From NCBI GenBank assembly GCA_023132135.1, contig JAGLYR010000064.1:1-15952 (forward strand): a stretch of 15,952 bases of DNA. The letters run 5' to 3'. The position numbers and the translations under genes were made by a program. The first letter of the stretch is position 1; each line of letters opens with the position of its first letter. Shown here piece by piece: positions 3 through 15,952 of this stretch. The notes beneath the pieces are model-generated. The model had not been told where the DNA came from and did not search any database. It was given only the letters and a program-made list of their open reading frames with translations. The DNA is from Candidatus Eiseniibacteriota bacterium (GTDB lineage: Bacteria; Arandabacterota; Arandabacteria; JAGLYR01).

Positions 3-23
3 TAGCCTGAATAACCCAGGCTA
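3..23 (-). terminator. Hairpin/repeat copy at the trxB stop codon
   Basis: A perfect 7-bp inverted repeat (TAGCCTG at 3-9 and CAGGCTA at 17-23, loop AATAACC) begins exactly at the trxB stop codon, so TAG is the first base triplet of the stem on the minus strand. There is no U-tract, so a role as an intrinsic terminator is uncertain. The minus-strand reading CTAGCCTGGGTTATTCA is identical over 17 nt to the sequence at the stop of the last gene (15894-15910), which makes this a member of the dispersed repeat family. Confidence 0.6.
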
Positions 24-968
24 GGGTTGATCACCTGGATAGACGCGATCCTCCATCTCCGCGAGAAACTTGTCCGCTTCCAGGGCGGCCATGCATCCGG
101 AGGCTGCCGCCGTCACTGCCTGCTGGTACACGGAGTCCTGCACATCGCCGCCGGCGAAGACCCCGCGGGCGGTTGTTCGTTGGCGTTCGTCCGTCTTGAC
201 GTATCCGGCTCTGTCCAGGTCCAGGTGACCCTTGAAGACCGCCGTGTTGGGTTCATGGCCGATTGCGCCAAAGAGCCCGTCGATCTCCAACTCCGATATC
301 TTCCCGGTGGGAAGATGCTTGAGCCTGATTCCGGTCACACCTTTCTCGTCATTGCCAAGGATTTCTTCGGTGACGGATTCCATGACCGGGTGGATATTGT
401 CAATGGCCTCGACGCGGGCCTGCAGGGCCGGTCCGCTTCGAAACCGGTCTCTCCGATGGATGAGATGGACGGAGGTGGCCACTTTGGCGAGAATACTCGC
501 TTCTTCCAGGGCCGAATCGCCGCCACCCACCACTGCCACACGGCGGCCCCGGTAGAAGAAAGCATCGCAGGTCGCGCAGTACGAAACGCCTTTCCCGGTG
601 AATTCGGATTCACCCTTAACACCGAGCTTCCTTGCGCTTGCGCCCGTCGCGACGATCACGGTTTTGGCCTGGTATGCTCCGGCCGCGGTTTTGACCGTCA
701 GGGGGTGGTTCCGGAAGTCCACCTCGGTTACCTGCTCCGTGATAATCCTGGTCCCGAAGCGTTCGCACTGCTTTTTCATGAGCGTCATCAGCTCGGGCCC
801 GAGAATGCCCTCGGGAAACCCGGGGAAGTTCTCCACCTTGTCGGTGATGGTCAGCTGCCCGCCCATCTGCAGTCCTGTAAAGAGCACGGGTTCGAGGTCG
901 GCGCGGGCAGCGTAGATGGCAGCCGTGTAACCGGCGGGGCCGCTGCCGATGATGATGACGGAATGCAT
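21..968 (-). CDS. trxB: Thioredoxin reductase (NADPH-dependent flavoprotein)
   Basis: This enzyme transfers electrons from NADPH through FAD and a redox disulfide to thioredoxin in the cytoplasm. The N-terminus carries the FAD dinucleotide-binding motif GSGPAG (residues 8-13). The redox-active CATC motif has its cysteines at 131 and 134, and is followed by the NADPH-binding glycine motif VVGGGDSALEEA and by HRRDRFR, the arginine pattern typical of NADPH preference. The C-terminal GGDVQDSVYQQAVTAAASGC is the second FAD-binding block. The length (315 aa) is normal for the low-molecular-weight bacterial enzyme. An in-frame TTG lies two codons upstream at 974, but the ATG at 968 is preferred because AGGAGG lies 8 nt before it. 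The gene directly follows a purine permease, and its Shine-Dalgarno overlaps that gene's stop codon, so the two are probably co-transcribed. Its stop TAG lies inside a 7-bp hairpin repeat. Assignment is firm; whether it reduces thioredoxin or a related partner cannot be read from sequence. Confidence 0.96.
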   Translation of the reverse strand: MHSVIIIGSGPAGYTAAIYAARADLEPVLFTGLQMGGQLTITDKVENFPGFPEGILGPELMTLMKKQCERFGTRIITEQVTEVDFRNHPLTVKTAAGAYQAKTVIVATGASARKLGVKGESEFTGKGVSYCATCDAFFYRGRRVAVVGGGDSALEEASILAKVATSVHLIHRRDRFRSGPALQARVEAIDNIHPVMESVTEEILGNDEKGVTGIRLKHLPTGKISELEIDGLFGAIGHEPNTAVFKGHLDLDRAGYVKTDERQRTTARGVFAGGDVQDSVYQQAVTAAASGCMAALEADKFLAEMEDRVYPGDQP

Positions 969-976
969 TTGCAAAA

Positions 977-6372: not shown

Positions 6373-6421
6373 ATGCCCTTTTCCTTGGACTAGGGACTAG
6401 GGACTACGCACTAGGGACTTG
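6373..6421. repeat. Leader 15-mer plus five-unit heptamer array
   Basis: The 15-mer ATGCCCTTTTCCTTG (6373-6387) runs into five consecutive 7-bp units: GGACTAG, GGACTAG, GGACTAC, GCACTAG, GGACTTG (6387-6421). The array lies between the convergent phosphatase and ABC permease genes. The 15-mer recurs identically at 10222-10236, again directly before a heptamer array of different sequence, and the tail CTAGGGACTTGTTCT (6411-6425) recurs with one change at 10206-10220. Confidence 0.85.
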
Positions 6422-8296: not shown

Positions 8297-8345
8297 GGGC
8301 TAAGCGTTCCTCTGAGGCAATGCTGCAACGTTGCCGTCCACGGTG

Positions 8346-8374
8346 GCCCGGCTATTCATGAACAATCCGGGCTG
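8346..8374. repeat. Palindromic repeat copy inside the ABC operon
   Basis: GCCCGG (8346-8351) and CCGGGC (8367-8372) form a 6-bp GC stem around a 15-nt loop that contains the palindrome TTCATGAA (8355-8362). The segment TTCATGAACAATCCGGGCTG (8355-8374) matches the window-wide repeat consensus TTCATGMATAAYNNAGGCTA with three differences. It begins 1 nt past the TGA stop of the binding-protein gene on the minus strand. A stabilising 3' hairpin between the binding-protein and permease cistrons is a plausible effect. Confidence 0.7.
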
Positions 8375-8375
8375 A

Positions 8376-10004
8376 TCACCAGTCCGGATACCGCTGCTCT
8401 CCGGTGGGAACCCACCAGCGGCAGAGATTGTAGTCCCAGGAGTAGGTTGTCGGTCGGACATTCCGGACCCTCCCATCGACAGCAACGACCTCATCGGTCA
8501 CGAACAGGAATGTGTAGGGGGCATCGTCCACGATGATCTGCTGTGCCCGGCCCCACAGATCCCGGGCCGTCTCCCGGTCCAGTTCCACGCGGGCGTGATC
8601 GATGAGGGAATCAACCCCCGGGTTCGCGTAGTGCCCGATGTTGTACTTGTCCATGATGGATCTGGAGTGCCAGATGGTAGTGAGATCCACCTTGATTGCC
8701 GAAACCCACGCGGAGACGGCGGCCTGGAAATCCTTCTTCCTCGTCAGCCTTTCGACAAAGACGGTCCATTCGACCAGGCGGGGGACCACCTTGATCCCAA
8801 TCTTCCGGAGATCCTCCTGCAGAACCACCGTGATGTCCGCGCGGATCTGGTTGTCCCCGTTGGTGATGATCTCGAACTCGAACGGTTGCCCGTCCCGGTC
8901 CAGCCATCCGTCGCCGTCCCGATCAACCCACCCTTCCCGGGCGAGGAGTTCCACGGCTTGCTGAGGATCGAAGGGAATCTGTTTCAGATCCGGATTGTGT
9001 GCCCATAAGAAAGAGGGAATCGGCCCCATCGCCGGCCGGCCCATGCCGTCCAGGAGCGAGTCGATGATCTTTTGCCGGTCGATGGCCATGGAGAGGGCGC
9101 GACGGACGCTCCGGTCGGAGAACAGGGGGTCGGCGATGTTCCAGCAGACATAATGGTACACACGGGAGGGATAACTGTGGACGTTGATATTCGGCAGTTC
9201 TCTGACCCGGACTTTCTGGGCGGAGGGAACAACGGGCCACAGGTCGATTTGCCCGTTGCCGAGCTGGGTCGCAAGGCTCGTGGCATCGGGAATCACCTTC
9301 CAGACCAGGCGGTCGAGAAACGGGCGGCCCTCGAAGTACCCGTCGTAGGCGGCAAGTTCAATTCTCTGCTGGGGTATCCAGCTGATGAACCTGAAGGGCC
9401 CGTTGCCAATGGGTTGTCGATTGAAGTCCGCTGTCCGCATCGCGTCCAGAGACACGTTCTGCAGGATGTGGCGGGGCAATGGCCGGAAGATCCATGCGTC
9501 GAAAAACTGGTCCGGGTAAGCCTGGCGGAAGTCGAAGCGCACGGCAAAAGAATCCACGGCCGTGACCGACTCGATGTCCTCCAGCCAGCGAATGGTTTTC
9601 CATCCGATCTCCTCGCTGGAATAGAGGTCGAAGGAAAACACGACGTCGTGCGCGCTGAACTTCTCCCCGTCGTGCCAGGTGACATCGTCTCTCAGTTGAA
9701 ATGTCAAGGTCCTGCGATCCGGCGAGAATTCCCACCGGGTGGCCAGCCAGGGCTCAAAATCCTTCATGTCGGGCTTGATCCGGGCCAGCTGGCAGAACAG
9801 CTGCCCGTAGACGTCGGAGCCGGTGTTGGCGACGGAAACAAGGGGATTCAGCGCGTCGGCATCGGCTTCCGTGCCGATCACAAGGACATCGCCGTACGCA
9901 GGGTTATCCGTGTCCTCGGGGGACCCGGCCCGGTCGCTGGTGTTCTGGCAGGAGGAGAAAAGGACGACGAGTACAACTAGAGCGGCAATTCGCAAACGCT
10001 CCAC
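8376..10004 (-). CDS. Family 5 extracellular solute-binding lipoprotein
   Basis: This is the substrate-capturing component of a peptide/nickel/opine-type ABC importer (SBP_bac_5 family), 542 aa. The N-terminus is a lipoprotein signal: Arg at 3 and 5, a hydrophobic core, and a lipobox ending FSSC at Cys19. The mature protein shows family landmarks: GTEADADALNPLVS, then LATRWEFSPDRRTLTFQLRDDVTWHDGEKFSAHDVVFSFDLY, then GNGPFRFISW, then RRALSMAIDRQKII, and the calcium-loop-like RDGDGWLDRDGQPF. The start is GTG at 10004 with GGAGG four bases upstream. It is the first gene of the three-gene operon and has a strong candidate promoter about 58 bp upstream. The substrate cannot be assigned; family members bind peptides, nickel, opines and oligosaccharides. 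Confidence 0.94.
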   Translation of the reverse strand: MERLRIAALVVLVVLFSSCQNTSDRAGSPEDTDNPAYGDVLVIGTEADADALNPLVSVANTGSDVYGQLFCQLARIKPDMKDFEPWLATRWEFSPDRRTLTFQLRDDVTWHDGEKFSAHDVVFSFDLYSSEEIGWKTIRWLEDIESVTAVDSFAVRFDFRQAYPDQFFDAWIFRPLPRHILQNVSLDAMRTADFNRQPIGNGPFRFISWIPQQRIELAAYDGYFEGRPFLDRLVWKVIPDATSLATQLGNGQIDLWPVVPSAQKVRVRELPNINVHSYPSRVYHYVCWNIADPLFSDRSVRRALSMAIDRQKIIDSLLDGMGRPAMGPIPSFLWAHNPDLKQIPFDPQQAVELLAREGWVDRDGDGWLDRDGQPFEFEIITNGDNQIRADITVVLQEDLRKIGIKVVPRLVEWTVFVERLTRKKDFQAAVSAWVSAIKVDLTTIWHSRSIMDKYNIGHYANPGVDSLIDHARVELDRETARDLWGRAQQIIVDDAPYTFLFVTDEVVAVDGRVRNVRPTTYSWDYNLCRWWVPTGEQRYPDW

Positions 10005-10170: not shown

Positions 10171-10200
10171 TTGAGTCTCAGGCCGAGGTTCATGCATAAT
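10171..10200 (+). promoter_or_regulatory. Putative promoter of queH using the repeat as -10
   Basis: TTGAGT (10171-10176), an 18-bp spacer and CATAAT (10195-10200) resemble a sigma70 promoter (4 of 6 and 5 of 6 matches). The -10 lies inside the repeat copy at 10189-10208. Tentative. Confidence 0.3.
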
Positions 10201-10208
10201 GCAGGCTA
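10189..10208 (+). repeat. Dispersed repeat copy upstream of queH
   Basis: TTCATGCATAATGCAGGCTA fits the window-wide consensus TTCATGMATAAYNNAGGCTA exactly. It faces the queH gene, and its CAGGCTAG end (10202-10209) is the exact inverted complement of CTAGCCTG at 10850-10857 just after queH, so the gene is bracketed by inverted 8-mers. Confidence 0.75.
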
Positions 10209-10264
10209 GGGACTGGTTCTCATGCCCTTTTCCTTGCACGAAGCACGAGGTACGAAGCACGAAG
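10206..10264. repeat. Shared flank, leader 15-mer and four-unit heptamer array
   Basis: CTAGGGACTGGTTCT (10206-10220) and ATGCCCTTTTCCTTG (10222-10236) are shared with the 6373-6425 repeat. They are followed by four 7-bp units: CACGAAG, CACGAGG, TACGAAG, CACGAAG (10237-10264). The last unit, with the next bases, forms the AAGGAG ribosome site of queH. An apparent in-frame ATG at 10222 belongs to the repeat and is not the likely gene start. Confidence 0.85.
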
Positions 10265-10278
10265 GAGCGATACAGTCC

Positions 10279-10830
10279 ATGGAGCGAAGGAAACCATCTG
10301 TCCTGTTACACGTTTGCTGCGGCCCGTGCTCCACGGCTGTGATTGAGCGGCTGCGCGGGAAGTTCGACCTCACTCTCTTCTTCGCCAACGCGAATCTCCA
10401 TCCCCGGGAGGAGTATGAGCGGCGTCTCGAGGCGGCCCGCCATGTCGCGGCCCGCTACGAGATTCCCCTCGTCGTTGCCGATGACGATCACGGCGCGTGG
10501 CTCGAAGCCGTGCAGGGTCTTGAATGGGAGAAAGAGGGTGGCGCCCGGTGCGACATCTGTTTCCAGGTCCGGTTGGAGGAGACAGCCAGAGAAGCGGAGT
10601 CGCGGGGGATGGACTGGTTCACCACCACGCTCTCCATCAGCCCGCACAAGAACGCGAAGAGGATCAGTGAGATAGGCAGGCGCGCGACCATGAACCGGAA
10701 AGTCAGGTTTCTGGATGAGAATTTCAGAAAGAGGGAAGGATTCCGCAGATCGGTGAAGCTCAGCCGCGAGATGGGGCTGTACCGGCAGGACTACTGTGGC
10801 TGCGAATTCAGCATGAACCGATTGTCTTGA
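10279..10830 (+). CDS. queH: Epoxyqueuosine reductase QueH
   Basis: QueH reduces epoxyqueuosine to queuosine in the wobble position of GUN-anticodon tRNAs. It is the non-cobalamin, iron-sulfur alternative to QueG. The 183-aa protein has the family cysteines: CCGPC (C13, C14, C17) near the N-terminus, CDIC (C91, C94) in the middle and YCGCEFS (C173, C175) at the C-terminus. The PP-loop-like core VLLHVCCGPCS and the block TTLSISPHKN are also typical. I place the start at the ATG at 10279, with AAGGAG 11 nt upstream. An earlier in-frame ATG at 10222 would add 19 residues that merely translate the heptamer repeat. No other queuosine-pathway gene is nearby. The gene is bracketed by inverted repeat ends (10202-10209 and 10850-10857). 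Confidence 0.93.
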   Translation: MERRKPSVLLHVCCGPCSTAVIERLRGKFDLTLFFANANLHPREEYERRLEAARHVAARYEIPLVVADDDHGAWLEAVQGLEWEKEGGARCDICFQVRLEETAREAESRGMDWFTTTLSISPHKNAKRISEIGRRATMNRKVRFLDENFRKREGFRRSVKLSREMGLYRQDYCGCEFSMNRLS

Positions 10831-10840
10831 CCCCCGGGGG
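10831..10840. repeat. Short GC palindrome after queH
   Basis: CCCCCGGGGG directly follows the queH TGA stop and is a perfect 10-bp palindrome. It has no loop, so it is a poor intrinsic terminator by itself, although it precedes the large hairpin at 10853. Confidence 0.35.
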
Positions 10841-10852
10841 CGGTGATTGCTA

Positions 10853-10898
10853 GCCTGGACTATACACAAATCCGGGAGGATTTGTACACAGTCCAGGC
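10853..10898. repeat. Long imperfect hairpin downstream of queH
   Basis: Two 21-nt arms (10853-10873 and 10878-10898) around the tetraloop-like GGGA are complementary at 18 of 21 positions. The outer 9 bp (GCCTGGACT with AGTCCAGGC) and the inner 8 bp (CAAATCC side) are uninterrupted; the three mismatches are clustered in the middle. It is preceded by CTAG, giving CTAGCCTGG as at other repeat ends. It may act as a 3' stabilising or terminating structure, or be a repeat in its own right. Confidence 0.8.
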
Positions 10899-10901
10899 AG
10901 A

Positions 10902-11000
10902 GCAATAGAGAAGTAGACAATAGAAAATAGATCCCGGACAAGAGCATTATAGAAACACCTTTACACTTCTCTATTGCGGTCTATTCTCTATTGTCTATTC
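10902..11000. repeat. Facing heptamer arrays forming crossed inverted repeats
   Basis: The left array has degenerate AATAGA-type units (10903-10931). The right array has TCTATTG, then after CGG the units TCTATTC, TCTATTG, TCTATTC (10970-11000), which is the complementary heptamer. GCAATAGAGAAGT (10902-10914) pairs perfectly with ACTTCTCTATTGC (10965-10977), and AGACAATAGAAAATAG (10915-10930) pairs with 10981-10996 at 15 of 16 positions. The order is A, B, A-prime, B-prime, so both pairings cannot nest in one simple hairpin. The right array ends in TTCTCATGCCC (10998-11008), an 11-mer also found before the queH array (10217-10227). Confidence 0.8.
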
Positions 11001-11040
11001 TCATGCCCGGCAACGCACCAGCACATCGTGGGCATACCCA

Positions 11041-11060
11041 TTCATGCATAATCTAGGCTA
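11041..11060 (+). repeat. Dispersed repeat copy upstream of pyrE
   Basis: TTCATGCATAATCTAGGCTA fits the window-wide consensus exactly and lies 21 nt before the pyrE start. Its end also forms a small hairpin, GGCTA-GAG-TAGCC (11056-11068), just upstream of the GGAGG ribosome site, so it could influence pyrE translation. Confidence 0.75.
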
Positions 11061-11081
11061 GAGTAGCCTGTCGGAGGAAAC

Positions 11082-11633
11082 GTGGGCAATACGAGAGCCA
11101 GATTACTGCACGTGTTGAGAGAAAGATCACTCTTCTGGGGCGAGTTCCAGCTTTCGGCGGGTGGAACAAGCAAGTACTACATCGACGGCAAGCGCACGCT
11201 CATGGACCCGGAGGGGGCTCTTCTCATCGCACAGCACCTGTTCGAGATGATCCGGAACACAGGTGCGAACGCCGTCGGCGGTCCGTCCATCGGGGCGGAT
11301 TTCATTGTTCCGGTGGTGGCGGCCTGGAGCTTCCAGCAGGGCTGTCCGCTGGATGCCTTCGTTGTTCGCAAGGAACCCAAGAAACACGGCCAGAGGAAGC
11401 TCATCGAAGGGAACCTGCCCGATGATGCCAGCGCCATTCTAGTGGATGATGTGATCACGACTGGAGGATCCGTAATCCGGGCCATCCATGCAGTGGAGGA
11501 AGAAGGCGGGAAAGTTCTCAAGGTCCTCTGTCTCGTGGACCGTAGGGAGGGAGGGGATGAGAACCTGGCGGCGGAGGGGATTCCCCTGGAGGCCATTTTC
11601 ACCATCGACGAAGTTCTCGGGATTTCTGGATAG
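11082..11633 (+). CDS. pyrE: Orotate phosphoribosyltransferase
   Basis: PyrE condenses orotate with PRPP to give orotidine 5'-monophosphate in pyrimidine synthesis. The 183-aa sequence contains SKYYIDGKRTLMDPEG (about residues 28-43) and GGPSIGADFIVP. It also has the PRPP-binding signature ILVDDVITTGGS at 119-130, with the acidic pair D122/D123. The length is normal for a bacterial single-domain enzyme. The start is GTG at 11082 with GGAGG four bases upstream; no later start would keep the N-terminal substrate region. It lies between the repeat-filled gap and the cyclase gene, 24 nt before the preferred cyclase start. Its TAG stop begins the perfect palindrome TAGCCCGGGCTA. Co-transcription with the cyclase is possible but has no obvious metabolic logic. 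Confidence 0.95.
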   Translation: MGNTRARLLHVLRERSLFWGEFQLSAGGTSKYYIDGKRTLMDPEGALLIAQHLFEMIRNTGANAVGGPSIGADFIVPVVAAWSFQQGCPLDAFVVRKEPKKHGQRKLIEGNLPDDASAILVDDVITTGGSVIRAIHAVEEEGGKVLKVLCLVDRREGGDENLAAEGIPLEAIFTIDEVLGISG

Positions 11634-11642
11634 CCCGGGCTA
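11631..11642. repeat. 12-bp palindrome spanning the pyrE stop codon
   Basis: TAGCCCGGGCTA is a perfect palindrome whose first triplet is the pyrE stop. It ends just before the AGGTGG ribosome site of the cyclase. It resembles the TAGCC ends found at the stops of trxB, the phosphatase and the last gene. Without a loop or U-tract it is not a convincing terminator. Confidence 0.55.
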
Positions 11643-13899: not shown

Positions 13900-15897
13900 A
13901 TGCGGATGCTCATGATGTGGTCGTTGTTGCTCGTGTGTGGGCTGGTCACAGTCTCGACGGCGCATGCGGCCCGGACGGCGACGGTGGAATTCTACATAGG
14001 GGATCTGCACTACGCTGTTGCGCCGGACACGGTTTTCGCCCGGACGACGCTTGGTCAGGCACTTGACGAGGGCATGTTCCTCAGGACCGGGTCGGAATCC
14101 CGGGCCGAGGTCCGGTTGGATGACGGCACTCTTCTCCGGATGCAGGAGAATACCCTGATCCAGCTCTATACGATGGTTCCCGACACGCTGCAGGCGGCGG
14201 TGACAGCCGTGGGACTGGAGCAGGGTTCCCTCTACGTGATCAAGGGCCGCGTTCTGACAGGCGACGAGTTCCAGGTTCGCACACCCATCGCCGTGGCGGC
14301 CATCCGGGGGACCGAGTTCATGGACACCTTCCGGGCCGGCGCCAACGAGGTGCAGGTTCTGAGGGGCGAGGTCGATTTCCGGTCGCTCATCGACGGGCGC
14401 ACAATCCGGATCCTGCGGGGCCAGGCAGCCCGGATCAAGGGCGCATTCGCGCCTGCCCTGAGGGAACTGACGAACCAGGAGCTGAGTGATCTCCTGAGCG
14501 CATCGGAAACCGAGTCGTTCCAGCAGGAGAAACCTCCTGTGGAACCGGAAGGCGGCCCCGTAGAGGGCGAAGGCGGAGAAGGCGAGACGGGTGAAGAGAC
14601 GGGCAAGGTGGAGGCCCCGGAGCGGTACGAATCCCGCACGGGAAAGGCCGGGAAGAGCTATGGCGCCAGCATTGGGGCGGTTGTGATCGACGGCCAACTG
14701 GTTAATATGATTGGGTTCCGCCCCGAATTCACCATTGGCAAGGTGGGAATTGGTCTCGATCTGTCTCTGTATCTGGATGCGGACGGGGATATCCTCGATC
14801 GGTACTGGGACGATCCCCAGGACTACATCGACAAGATCTATTACCTGCGGTACGCACAGAAGGGAGAACCTTTCTACCTCCGGGCGGGAGCGCTCGAGGA
14901 GGTCTGCCTCGGCTATGGCCTGATCATGAGAGACTACTCCAATATCATGGAGTATCCGAGCACCATCCGGGTGGGAGCGGAACTGGGCCTCAACCGGAAC
15001 CAGTTTGTCCTGGAAGCCATGTTTGCCAACTTCCGGGAGCTCGATGAGCCCGGTGTGTTCGGTGGACGGCTGGCGTATCGCCCGCTGGTCATGAGCGACC
15101 TGCCGTTGCTCAAGAACCTGGAGGTCGGCGCAATTGCCGTGATGGACGGCAACCAGTATGCAGCGTTGGAGGATGGTCTGGGAGAGGAGTTGCCGGATTC
15201 GTCATACCACGACCGGGGGGCGTTGGTCTGGGGATTGGACGCGGGAATGCCGCTCCTGCGGGGCGGCTTCGTGGACATCGATCTGTACGCACAGTTTGCC
15301 CAGATTAACGAATACGGTCATGGTCTCACAATCCCGGGGTTCCGGGCGTCCGCCGGACCGCTCAGGGCTGAGTTCGAGTATTGCATCTTCGGCAAGCAGT
15401 TTGTCTCAGACTATTTCAACCGGACGTACGATATCGAGCGGGCCCGGCGGAATCCCGCTGTGCCGGATCCCTACGCAGAGAAGGGATATATTACCAAGAA
15501 AGATTTCCTGGAGGATCCCCAGTTCCAGGAGAGCAAGCAAGGTTGGTACGGCGGTCTGGGCCTCAACCTGCTGAACCTCCTCGACATCTGGGGAAGCATT
15601 CAGCTCCTTGGCTCGGGAGATACGGCCGACGAGTCCGGCTATCTTGAAGGCGTTCTGGATACCTCGTGGATCCCGCGGATCTCGCATCTCTCGGCTTATG
15701 CCCAGCAGACCCATGTCAGGGATCTGTTTGAGTTCGAGAGAGGGCCTTCGACTGCCTATGGAGTCAACCTGGGCTACGAAATCGCTCCCGGAGCGTCCAT
15801 CATCGTGGGCATGCGGGGAACCTACGCCGACACCGATGGCGACGGCGTGTTCGAATTGGTGCGGACAACACAGATCGAGACAATGGTGACTTTCTAG
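13900..15897 (+). CDS. FecR-domain protein fused to an outer-membrane beta-barrel
   Basis: This 665-aa exported protein has a cleavable signal peptide (residues 1-23, ending THA before ARTATVEF). A FecR-type beta domain lies at about 27-190, with GMFLRTGSESRAEVRLDDGTLLRMQENTLIQL and VRTPIAVAAIRGTEFMDTF as its recognisable blocks. An acidic Gly/Glu/Pro linker covers about 210-240. The C-terminal region from about 250 has alternating amphipathic strands rich in Tyr and Gly, ends in ETMVTF, and carries the terminal Phe typical of BAM-inserted outer-membrane barrels. FecR domains are usually the periplasmic part of sigma-factor regulators; here there is no cytoplasmic or TM region, so a structural or ligand-binding periplasmic role is more likely. 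The ATG at 13900 has GGGGAGG six bases upstream; a longer in-frame extension overlaps the cyclase and lacks a signal peptide. I do not recognise the barrel family. Confidence 0.85.
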   Translation: MRMLMMWSLLLVCGLVTVSTAHAARTATVEFYIGDLHYAVAPDTVFARTTLGQALDEGMFLRTGSESRAEVRLDDGTLLRMQENTLIQLYTMVPDTLQAAVTAVGLEQGSLYVIKGRVLTGDEFQVRTPIAVAAIRGTEFMDTFRAGANEVQVLRGEVDFRSLIDGRTIRILRGQAARIKGAFAPALRELTNQELSDLLSASETESFQQEKPPVEPEGGPVEGEGGEGETGEETGKVEAPERYESRTGKAGKSYGASIGAVVIDGQLVNMIGFRPEFTIGKVGIGLDLSLYLDADGDILDRYWDDPQDYIDKIYYLRYAQKGEPFYLRAGALEEVCLGYGLIMRDYSNIMEYPSTIRVGAELGLNRNQFVLEAMFANFRELDEPGVFGGRLAYRPLVMSDLPLLKNLEVGAIAVMDGNQYAALEDGLGEELPDSSYHDRGALVWGLDAGMPLLRGGFVDIDLYAQFAQINEYGHGLTIPGFRASAGPLRAEFEYCIFGKQFVSDYFNRTYDIERARRNPAVPDPYAEKGYITKKDFLEDPQFQESKQGWYGGLGLNLLNLLDIWGSIQLLGSGDTADESGYLEGVLDTSWIPRISHLSAYAQQTHVRDLFEFERGPSTAYGVNLGYEIAPGASIIVGMRGTYADTDGDGVFELVRTTQIETMVTF

Positions 15898-15916
15898 CCT
15901 GGGTTATTCATGAATC
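15894..15916 (+). repeat. Dispersed repeat copy containing the last gene's stop codon
   Basis: CTAGCCTGGGTTATTCA (15894-15910) includes the TAG stop at 15895-15897 and is identical over 17 nt to the minus-strand sequence at the trxB stop. Read on the minus strand, 15914-15895 gives TTCATGAATAACCCAGGCTA, an exact fit to the window consensus. Its centre ATTCATGAAT is a 10-bp palindrome. It has no U-tract. The remaining 36 bases of the window show no gene. Confidence 0.75.
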
Positions 15917-15952
15917 CCTGCTGCGAAGGGCGCAGGATGTGTCTGGACTGCG

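Follow-up and report, generated by a model that had tools for sequence, protein, structure and literature searches.

Gene-flanking inverted repeats in a Candidatus Eiseniibacteriota genome are the termini of MITEs with IS1380-type ends that often lie on stop codons

The short repeat that appears to bracket genes in the window (the whole 15,952-nt stretch of contig JAGLYR010000064.1 analysed here) is the terminal inverted repeat (TIR) of a MITE, and not a gene bracket. An initial annotation of the sequence had described the repeats as inverted 'bookends' around genes, a pattern that is very probably explained by a MITE family with IS1380-type ends, a YTAR target and stop-preserving insertion. 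MITEs are a known kind of element; this family has a broad distribution and an unusual relation to stop codons.

Every repeat site quoted in the initial annotation is present where it had been placed, and the copy number lies far beyond chance. At up to 3 mismatches, the 20-mer occurs five times in the window, at 4-23, 8355-8374, 10189-10208 and 11041-11060 on the plus strand and, as an exact TIR, at 15895-15914 on the minus strand; shuffles expect 0.01 matches, and none of 200 window shuffles gave five. In the 3.4-Mb source genome, 270 copies were found at the same threshold, 135 on each strand, versus 3 (2+1 by strand) for the reversed-pattern control. Many copies are located near contig ends, where an assembly-breaking repeat would be expected, and the window itself both begins and finishes within motif copies. 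A contig scan of other genomes detected the exact motif in more than 10 phyla among the matches listed, often as paired TIRs with differing interiors, and six other genomes contain 24-238 copies each with 0 control matches. In the plasmid collection, only 18-nt partial motif matches were found, in Persicobacter, and the one plasmid record examined for genes (L170) yielded no IS1380 gene. The motif represents a family of dispersed palindromic repeats whose abundance greatly exceeds chance and whose placement relative to genes is non-random.

Copies occur as minus-then-plus TIR pairs with the layout TAGCC..TTCATGAA-interior-TTCATGAA..GGCTA. Complete copies are 21-210 nt long, contain neither a transposase gene nor any other gene, and form a size ladder of about 180, 53-68, 32 and 21 nt. 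Most members of the longest class (155-190 nt) have a common interior; in the 53-68 nt forms both ends are fused at varying points, the 32-nt forms are palindromes whose two ends have TTCATGAA in common, and the 21-nt class, TAGCCTGRRTTATTCAGGCTA, comprises about 25 copies among the matches listed for the source genome. The short forms presumably originated by internal deletion. Element tips in the source genome are always TAG...CTA with variable outer bases, and, taken together, sequences fitting TAGCC-N0-14-GGCTA are no commoner there than those fitting its reversed control. A 181-nt copy is predicted to form a single long hairpin (-95.4 kcal/mol, z -8.3). No Rfam family matched in the window above the gathering score, the sole Rfam match being a tRNA in L017, outside the element. 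A length below about 500 bp, the lack of a transposase gene, the presence of TIRs and a high dispersed copy number characterize MITEs, and all are found here. The sequence YRACC..GGTGATTGATGGAGAGCG, which adjoins many 21-mers, was considered as an extension of the element and more probably represents the left terminus of a different but related element in a tip-to-tip stack. Such stacks (GGCTA followed by YRACC..GGTGATTGATGGAGAGCG) are seen at gene ends in L231, L237, L244, L249, L250, L263 and others, which suggests repeated insertion in one place.

In the window, several size classes are represented. At the left margin, the initial annotation had reported a 16/20 match at 4-23 beside trxB; the site exists, but it is not a diverged 20-mer, being instead an exact member of the 21-nt class of the source genome (TAGCCTGAATAACCCAGGCTA, 3-23, plus strand). 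The trxB ORF (21-974, minus strand) ends on the last three bases of this element, its TAG stop being read as CTA at 21-23. The copy described as diverged at 8355-8374 does match with 3 mismatches, but it is part of a degenerate 32-nt palindromic form at 8344-8374, in which two TIRs share TTCATGAA and one base is lost; this palindrome is located one base past the end of the solute-binding-protein gene, which has its own TGA stop (8376-8378). Upstream of queH lies a solo right-hand TIR, TTCATGCATAATGCAGGCTA (10189-10208, plus strand, exact match), for which no left partner was found nearby at up to 7 mismatches. Between queH and pyrE there is a 210-nt, non-coding MITE-type element with paired TIRs (10851-11060), comprised of the left tip TAGCCTGGACTATACACAAATCC, a heptad-repeat interior and the right tip TTCATGCATAATCTAGGCTA, the right-hand TIR being an exact plus-strand match at 11041-11060. 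Its RNA fold has a z of -7.5, positions 10902-11060 are 91% identical to L029 and 10908-11060 are 90% identical to L005, and a short palindrome (inverted repeat I20, arms 86% complementary) is nested at its left end (10851-10898). What had been taken at 10850, after queH, for a truncated copy (CTAGCCTG) is the left tip of this element.

The other supposedly truncated copy, after pyrE, is the 12-nt palindrome TAGCCCGGGCTA at 11631-11642, which contains the pyrE stop codon (11631-11633) according to the sequence and the ORF end. It may possibly be an element remnant, not distinguishable from chance, since it is too short to assign and its pattern class does not exceed the reversed control. At the right margin, the reversed copy at 15895 is exact, as annotated, and proves in addition to be the left end of a full-length MITE of ~180 nt (15895-15952, minus strand) that is broken by the contig end; it is 98% identical to L010 over 58 nt and 93-98% identical to other copies, and a FecR-domain gene stops at its TAG (15895-15897). 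The window also carries 7-nt tandem arrays at 6373-6419, 10222-10264, 10904-10931 and 10980-11002 (units GGACTAG, GCACGAA, AATAGAA and TCTATTC), the first two of which are preceded by a common ATGCCCTTTTCCTTG leader and are seen again close to other elements of the source genome. The longest queH ORF begins within the repeated ATGCCCTTTTCCTTG block (10222-10279); as the QueH domain starts from residue 27, the ATG at 10279 is the more likely start of queH.

The arrangement around queH had also raised the idea that the repeats are the ends of mobilisable single-gene cassettes, with genes such as queH moving as units. Genes do sit between tips, and exact inverted 8-mers do stand on either side of queH; these 8-mers, however, are tips of two different elements. 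They face outward from their own elements, so a transposase would move the elements and not queH, and what lies between the partner tips at 10851 and 11060 is a 210-nt non-coding stretch. Moreover, complete units contain no gene, queH lies outside them, and about 83% of the sequences directly outside tips (96/115) occur in one place only, all of which makes cassettes extremely improbable. The initial annotation had further argued from an orientation that follows gene direction. Placement is indeed non-random, but the orientation is automatic for a symmetrical intergenic inverted-repeat element, because inverted tips always present TAGCC to the preceding gene and GGCTA to the following one; orientation alone is therefore uninformative. 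The informative signal is the tip TAG as an in-frame stop codon.

A REP-like nature had been put forward as well. In a REP/BIME reading, the repeats would be short palindromes that a RAYT (Y1_Tnp) transposase propagates as single-stranded hairpins and that are retained because of post-transcriptional functions. This description captures the abundant short palindromic forms (21-68 nt) at gene 3' ends, their strong predicted hairpins, and the fact that most source-genome copies have no visible target duplication. However, the only Y1_Tnp match in the source genome is a 62-position fragment with no motif beside it, TIRs and a conserved interior are present in the longest forms, other genomes show 4-bp duplications, and the motif TIR flanks DDE transposases. 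The palindromes and the predicted RNA folding thus stand, but TIRs, the duplications in other genomes and the IS1380 link identify the elements as MITEs, and a REP/BIME origin is regarded as very unlikely.

With regard to the source of mobility, insertion sequences of the IS1380 family (DDE_Tnp_1_4) have ends that match the MITE ends. A filamentous cyanobacterium (L048) has a DDE_Tnp_1_4 transposase gene (449 aa, 2e-129) as the only gene between two tips, which match the motif with 1 and 2 substitutions relative to TTCATGAATAATCCGGGYTA, and in L172 TIRs lie on either side of a DDE_Tnp_1_4 transposase. When tips were sought within 450 bp of IS1380-family loci found by the Pfam model, ten outward-facing TIRs were detected at 8 of 19 loci and none the wrong way, with 0.115 expected. 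Most of the 8 TIR-bearing transposases are higher-scoring family members; the motif TIR was absent from lower-scoring PF13701 genes, which restricts the association to part of the family. The match of the ends makes it most likely that transposases of the IS1380 type move the MITEs in trans. Nitrospira elements (L035, L044, L055 and other loci) often have one tip that starts with GTCATG rather than TTCATG, and in a Nitrospiraceae genome (L205) the tip beside an IS1380 gene starts with GTCGTG, a similarity that suggests a matched parent.

In the fragmented source assembly, no IS1380 transposase with exactly the motif TIR was found. One intact IS1380 gene is present, on C139 (476-aa frame), and its right end, GGTGAGAAATGCGGGCTA, is related to the motif TIR (16/20) and is the TIR of a second MITE family. 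This C139 element (L148, L150) directly adjoins an IS3-like element, which is why its left end was not found. The second family (TIR GGTGAGAAATGCRGGCTA) has 213 copies in the source genome against 1 in the control, mostly 181-182 nt long, for example C190:9212-9392 (L308). It too is found at stop codons, with ORF frames at its tips of 15, 3 and 4 (15/22 in the stop frame). In many copies, TAGCCACGGCTA recurs ~60 nt inside the TIR.

Target duplications are evident in other phyla. Identical tetramers flank 38 of 45 complete elements there (CTAG 28, CTAA 5, TTAG 4, TTAA 1), and 6 of 9 in a further small set, so that the duplicated target in these phyla is a 4-bp YTAR, mostly CTAG. A TA-only duplication had been entertained and was replaced by the 4-bp YTAR after pairs from other genomes were tabulated. 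Of 39 elements in the source genome, only 8 have matching flanking tetramers; Y and R are not the only outer bases there, and no offset gives a convincing target duplication (largest Z 2.7 in 100 tests); in a relative of the same class (G006), tetramers matched at 1 of 9 pairs. Later shuffling among the hundreds of copies could account for the missing duplications, as could a second way of spreading that leaves none.

The relation to stop codons was assessed by taking, for each tip, the frame of the longest ORF of at least 100 codons entering it, the ORF calls being mechanical and not curated. In the source genome, 56 of 70 such ORFs use the tip TAG as an in-frame stop (6 and 8 in the other frames). 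A codon-usage-filtered version of the test gave 25, 1 and 1 (25/27 in the stop frame). TAGCC sites outside elements favour another frame (23/128 in frame 0). In other phyla, 39 of 62 long ORFs entering tips stop on the tip TAG, and a further small set gave frames of 9, 2 and 4; no frame bias was seen among 8 ORFs in G006. Three genes of the window end on a tip TAG, namely trxB, the FecR-domain gene and pyrE, the pyrE element being only a possible 12-nt remnant. The C-termini of TrxB and PyrE are natural when compared with solved structures. Single elements whose two tips both stop convergent ORFs were observed in L071 (1696-1860), L078 (2044-2075) and L242 (1475-1495).

Target preference by itself might produce such a pattern, if the transposase likes CTAG, often a stop in GC-rich genomes, and selection adds nothing. 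The duplications are mostly CTAG, and CTAG sites outside elements are themselves in-frame stops in 14-17% of cases. The tips nevertheless exceed this background, with in-frame stops at 46% of tips versus 17% of CTAG sites outside elements in the source genome (p 7e-6) and 27% versus 14% in other genomes (p 6e-4), and it is therefore rather unlikely that preference alone is responsible.

An occupied and an empty version of one site were compared in Nitrospira, where 29 genomes of the genus were searched with the flanks of the L088 element fused across a single TA. Four genomes (L344, L345, L346 and L348) have empty sites, in which the gene ends ...GGCCAACCGGTG-TAA, followed by similar downstream DNA and no element. 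In four others (L342, L347, L352 and L356), the gene ends GTC-TAG with the element immediately after it, and at the far end of the L088 source copy GGG-CTAG leads into the downstream sequence. The two versions and the far-end CTAG thus show insertion at the stop codon, with duplication of CTAG and no change to the end of the protein. All four occupied genomes may descend from a single insertion event.

These observations can be accommodated in the following scheme for the MITE family. It would consist of non-autonomous elements, ~180 bp at full length and 53-68, 32 or 21 nt after internal deletion, moved in trans by IS1380-type (DDE_Tnp_1_4) transposases. The transposase would select a YTAR tetranucleotide, mostly CTAG, and duplicate it. 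Since the element proper begins with CC, directly after the duplicated YTAR, a gene hit at its TAG or TAA stop would keep an in-frame TAG or TAA at that very codon and encode an unaltered protein. Insertions at gene ends would accumulate, as CTAG sites are often stop codons and insertions within genes are probably purged by selection. The preceding gene would accordingly meet TAGCC... at its stop and the following gene ...GGCTA before its start, which are the 'bookends'. More tentatively, and with somewhat less than even confidence, it is proposed that mini-elements mobilised by IS1380 use stop codons as a safe harbour, and that in the source genome tiny TAG...CTA hairpins have been amplified without duplication; if so, a noticeable share of source-genome genes ends on transposon-supplied stop codons.

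Landing on and restoring a stop codon would provide a sequence reason for hundreds of transposon copies in compact bacterial genomes. A repeat found in many metagenome-assembled genomes is now tied to a transposase family, and the MITE reading accounts for both the contig breaks and the apparent gene 'brackets'. Neither this family nor the restoration of a stop codon is described in the open-access literature searched, which also contained no report of IS5 or piggyBac occupying stop codons.

Among known systems, IS1380-family insertion sequences have the same TIR in the same orientation, with intact copies in L048, L172 and others, whereas the window elements have no transposase gene. IS5, with its CTAG target (PMC10379815), and eukaryotic piggyBac, with its TTAA target (PMC10813416, in which IS1380 is taken as the prokaryotic outgroup for piggyBac), likewise duplicate a 4-bp target of YTAR form at insertion but have different termini. 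REP/BIME elements are also small palindromes at gene ends, but here no RAYT gene is linked, and there are TIRs, plus target duplications in other genomes. Bacterial MITEs, including QMITE2, Chunjie, ERIC, RUP and others, have been reviewed (PMC10969869), and the present elements resemble them in being short, non-coding, TIR-bounded, multicopy and mostly intergenic, with stable RNA hairpins and truncated forms that resemble REPs. QMITE2 of Coxiella burnetii is similarly found mostly in 3' untranslated regions, and one of its copies alters the 3' end of enhC (PMC5896051); that insertion adds 33 residues to the protein, whereas here the stop position is kept. Unlike the reviewed bacterial MITEs, the family described here has an IS1380-type TIR that is common to many phyla with different interiors, and its tips often form the stop codon of the preceding gene.
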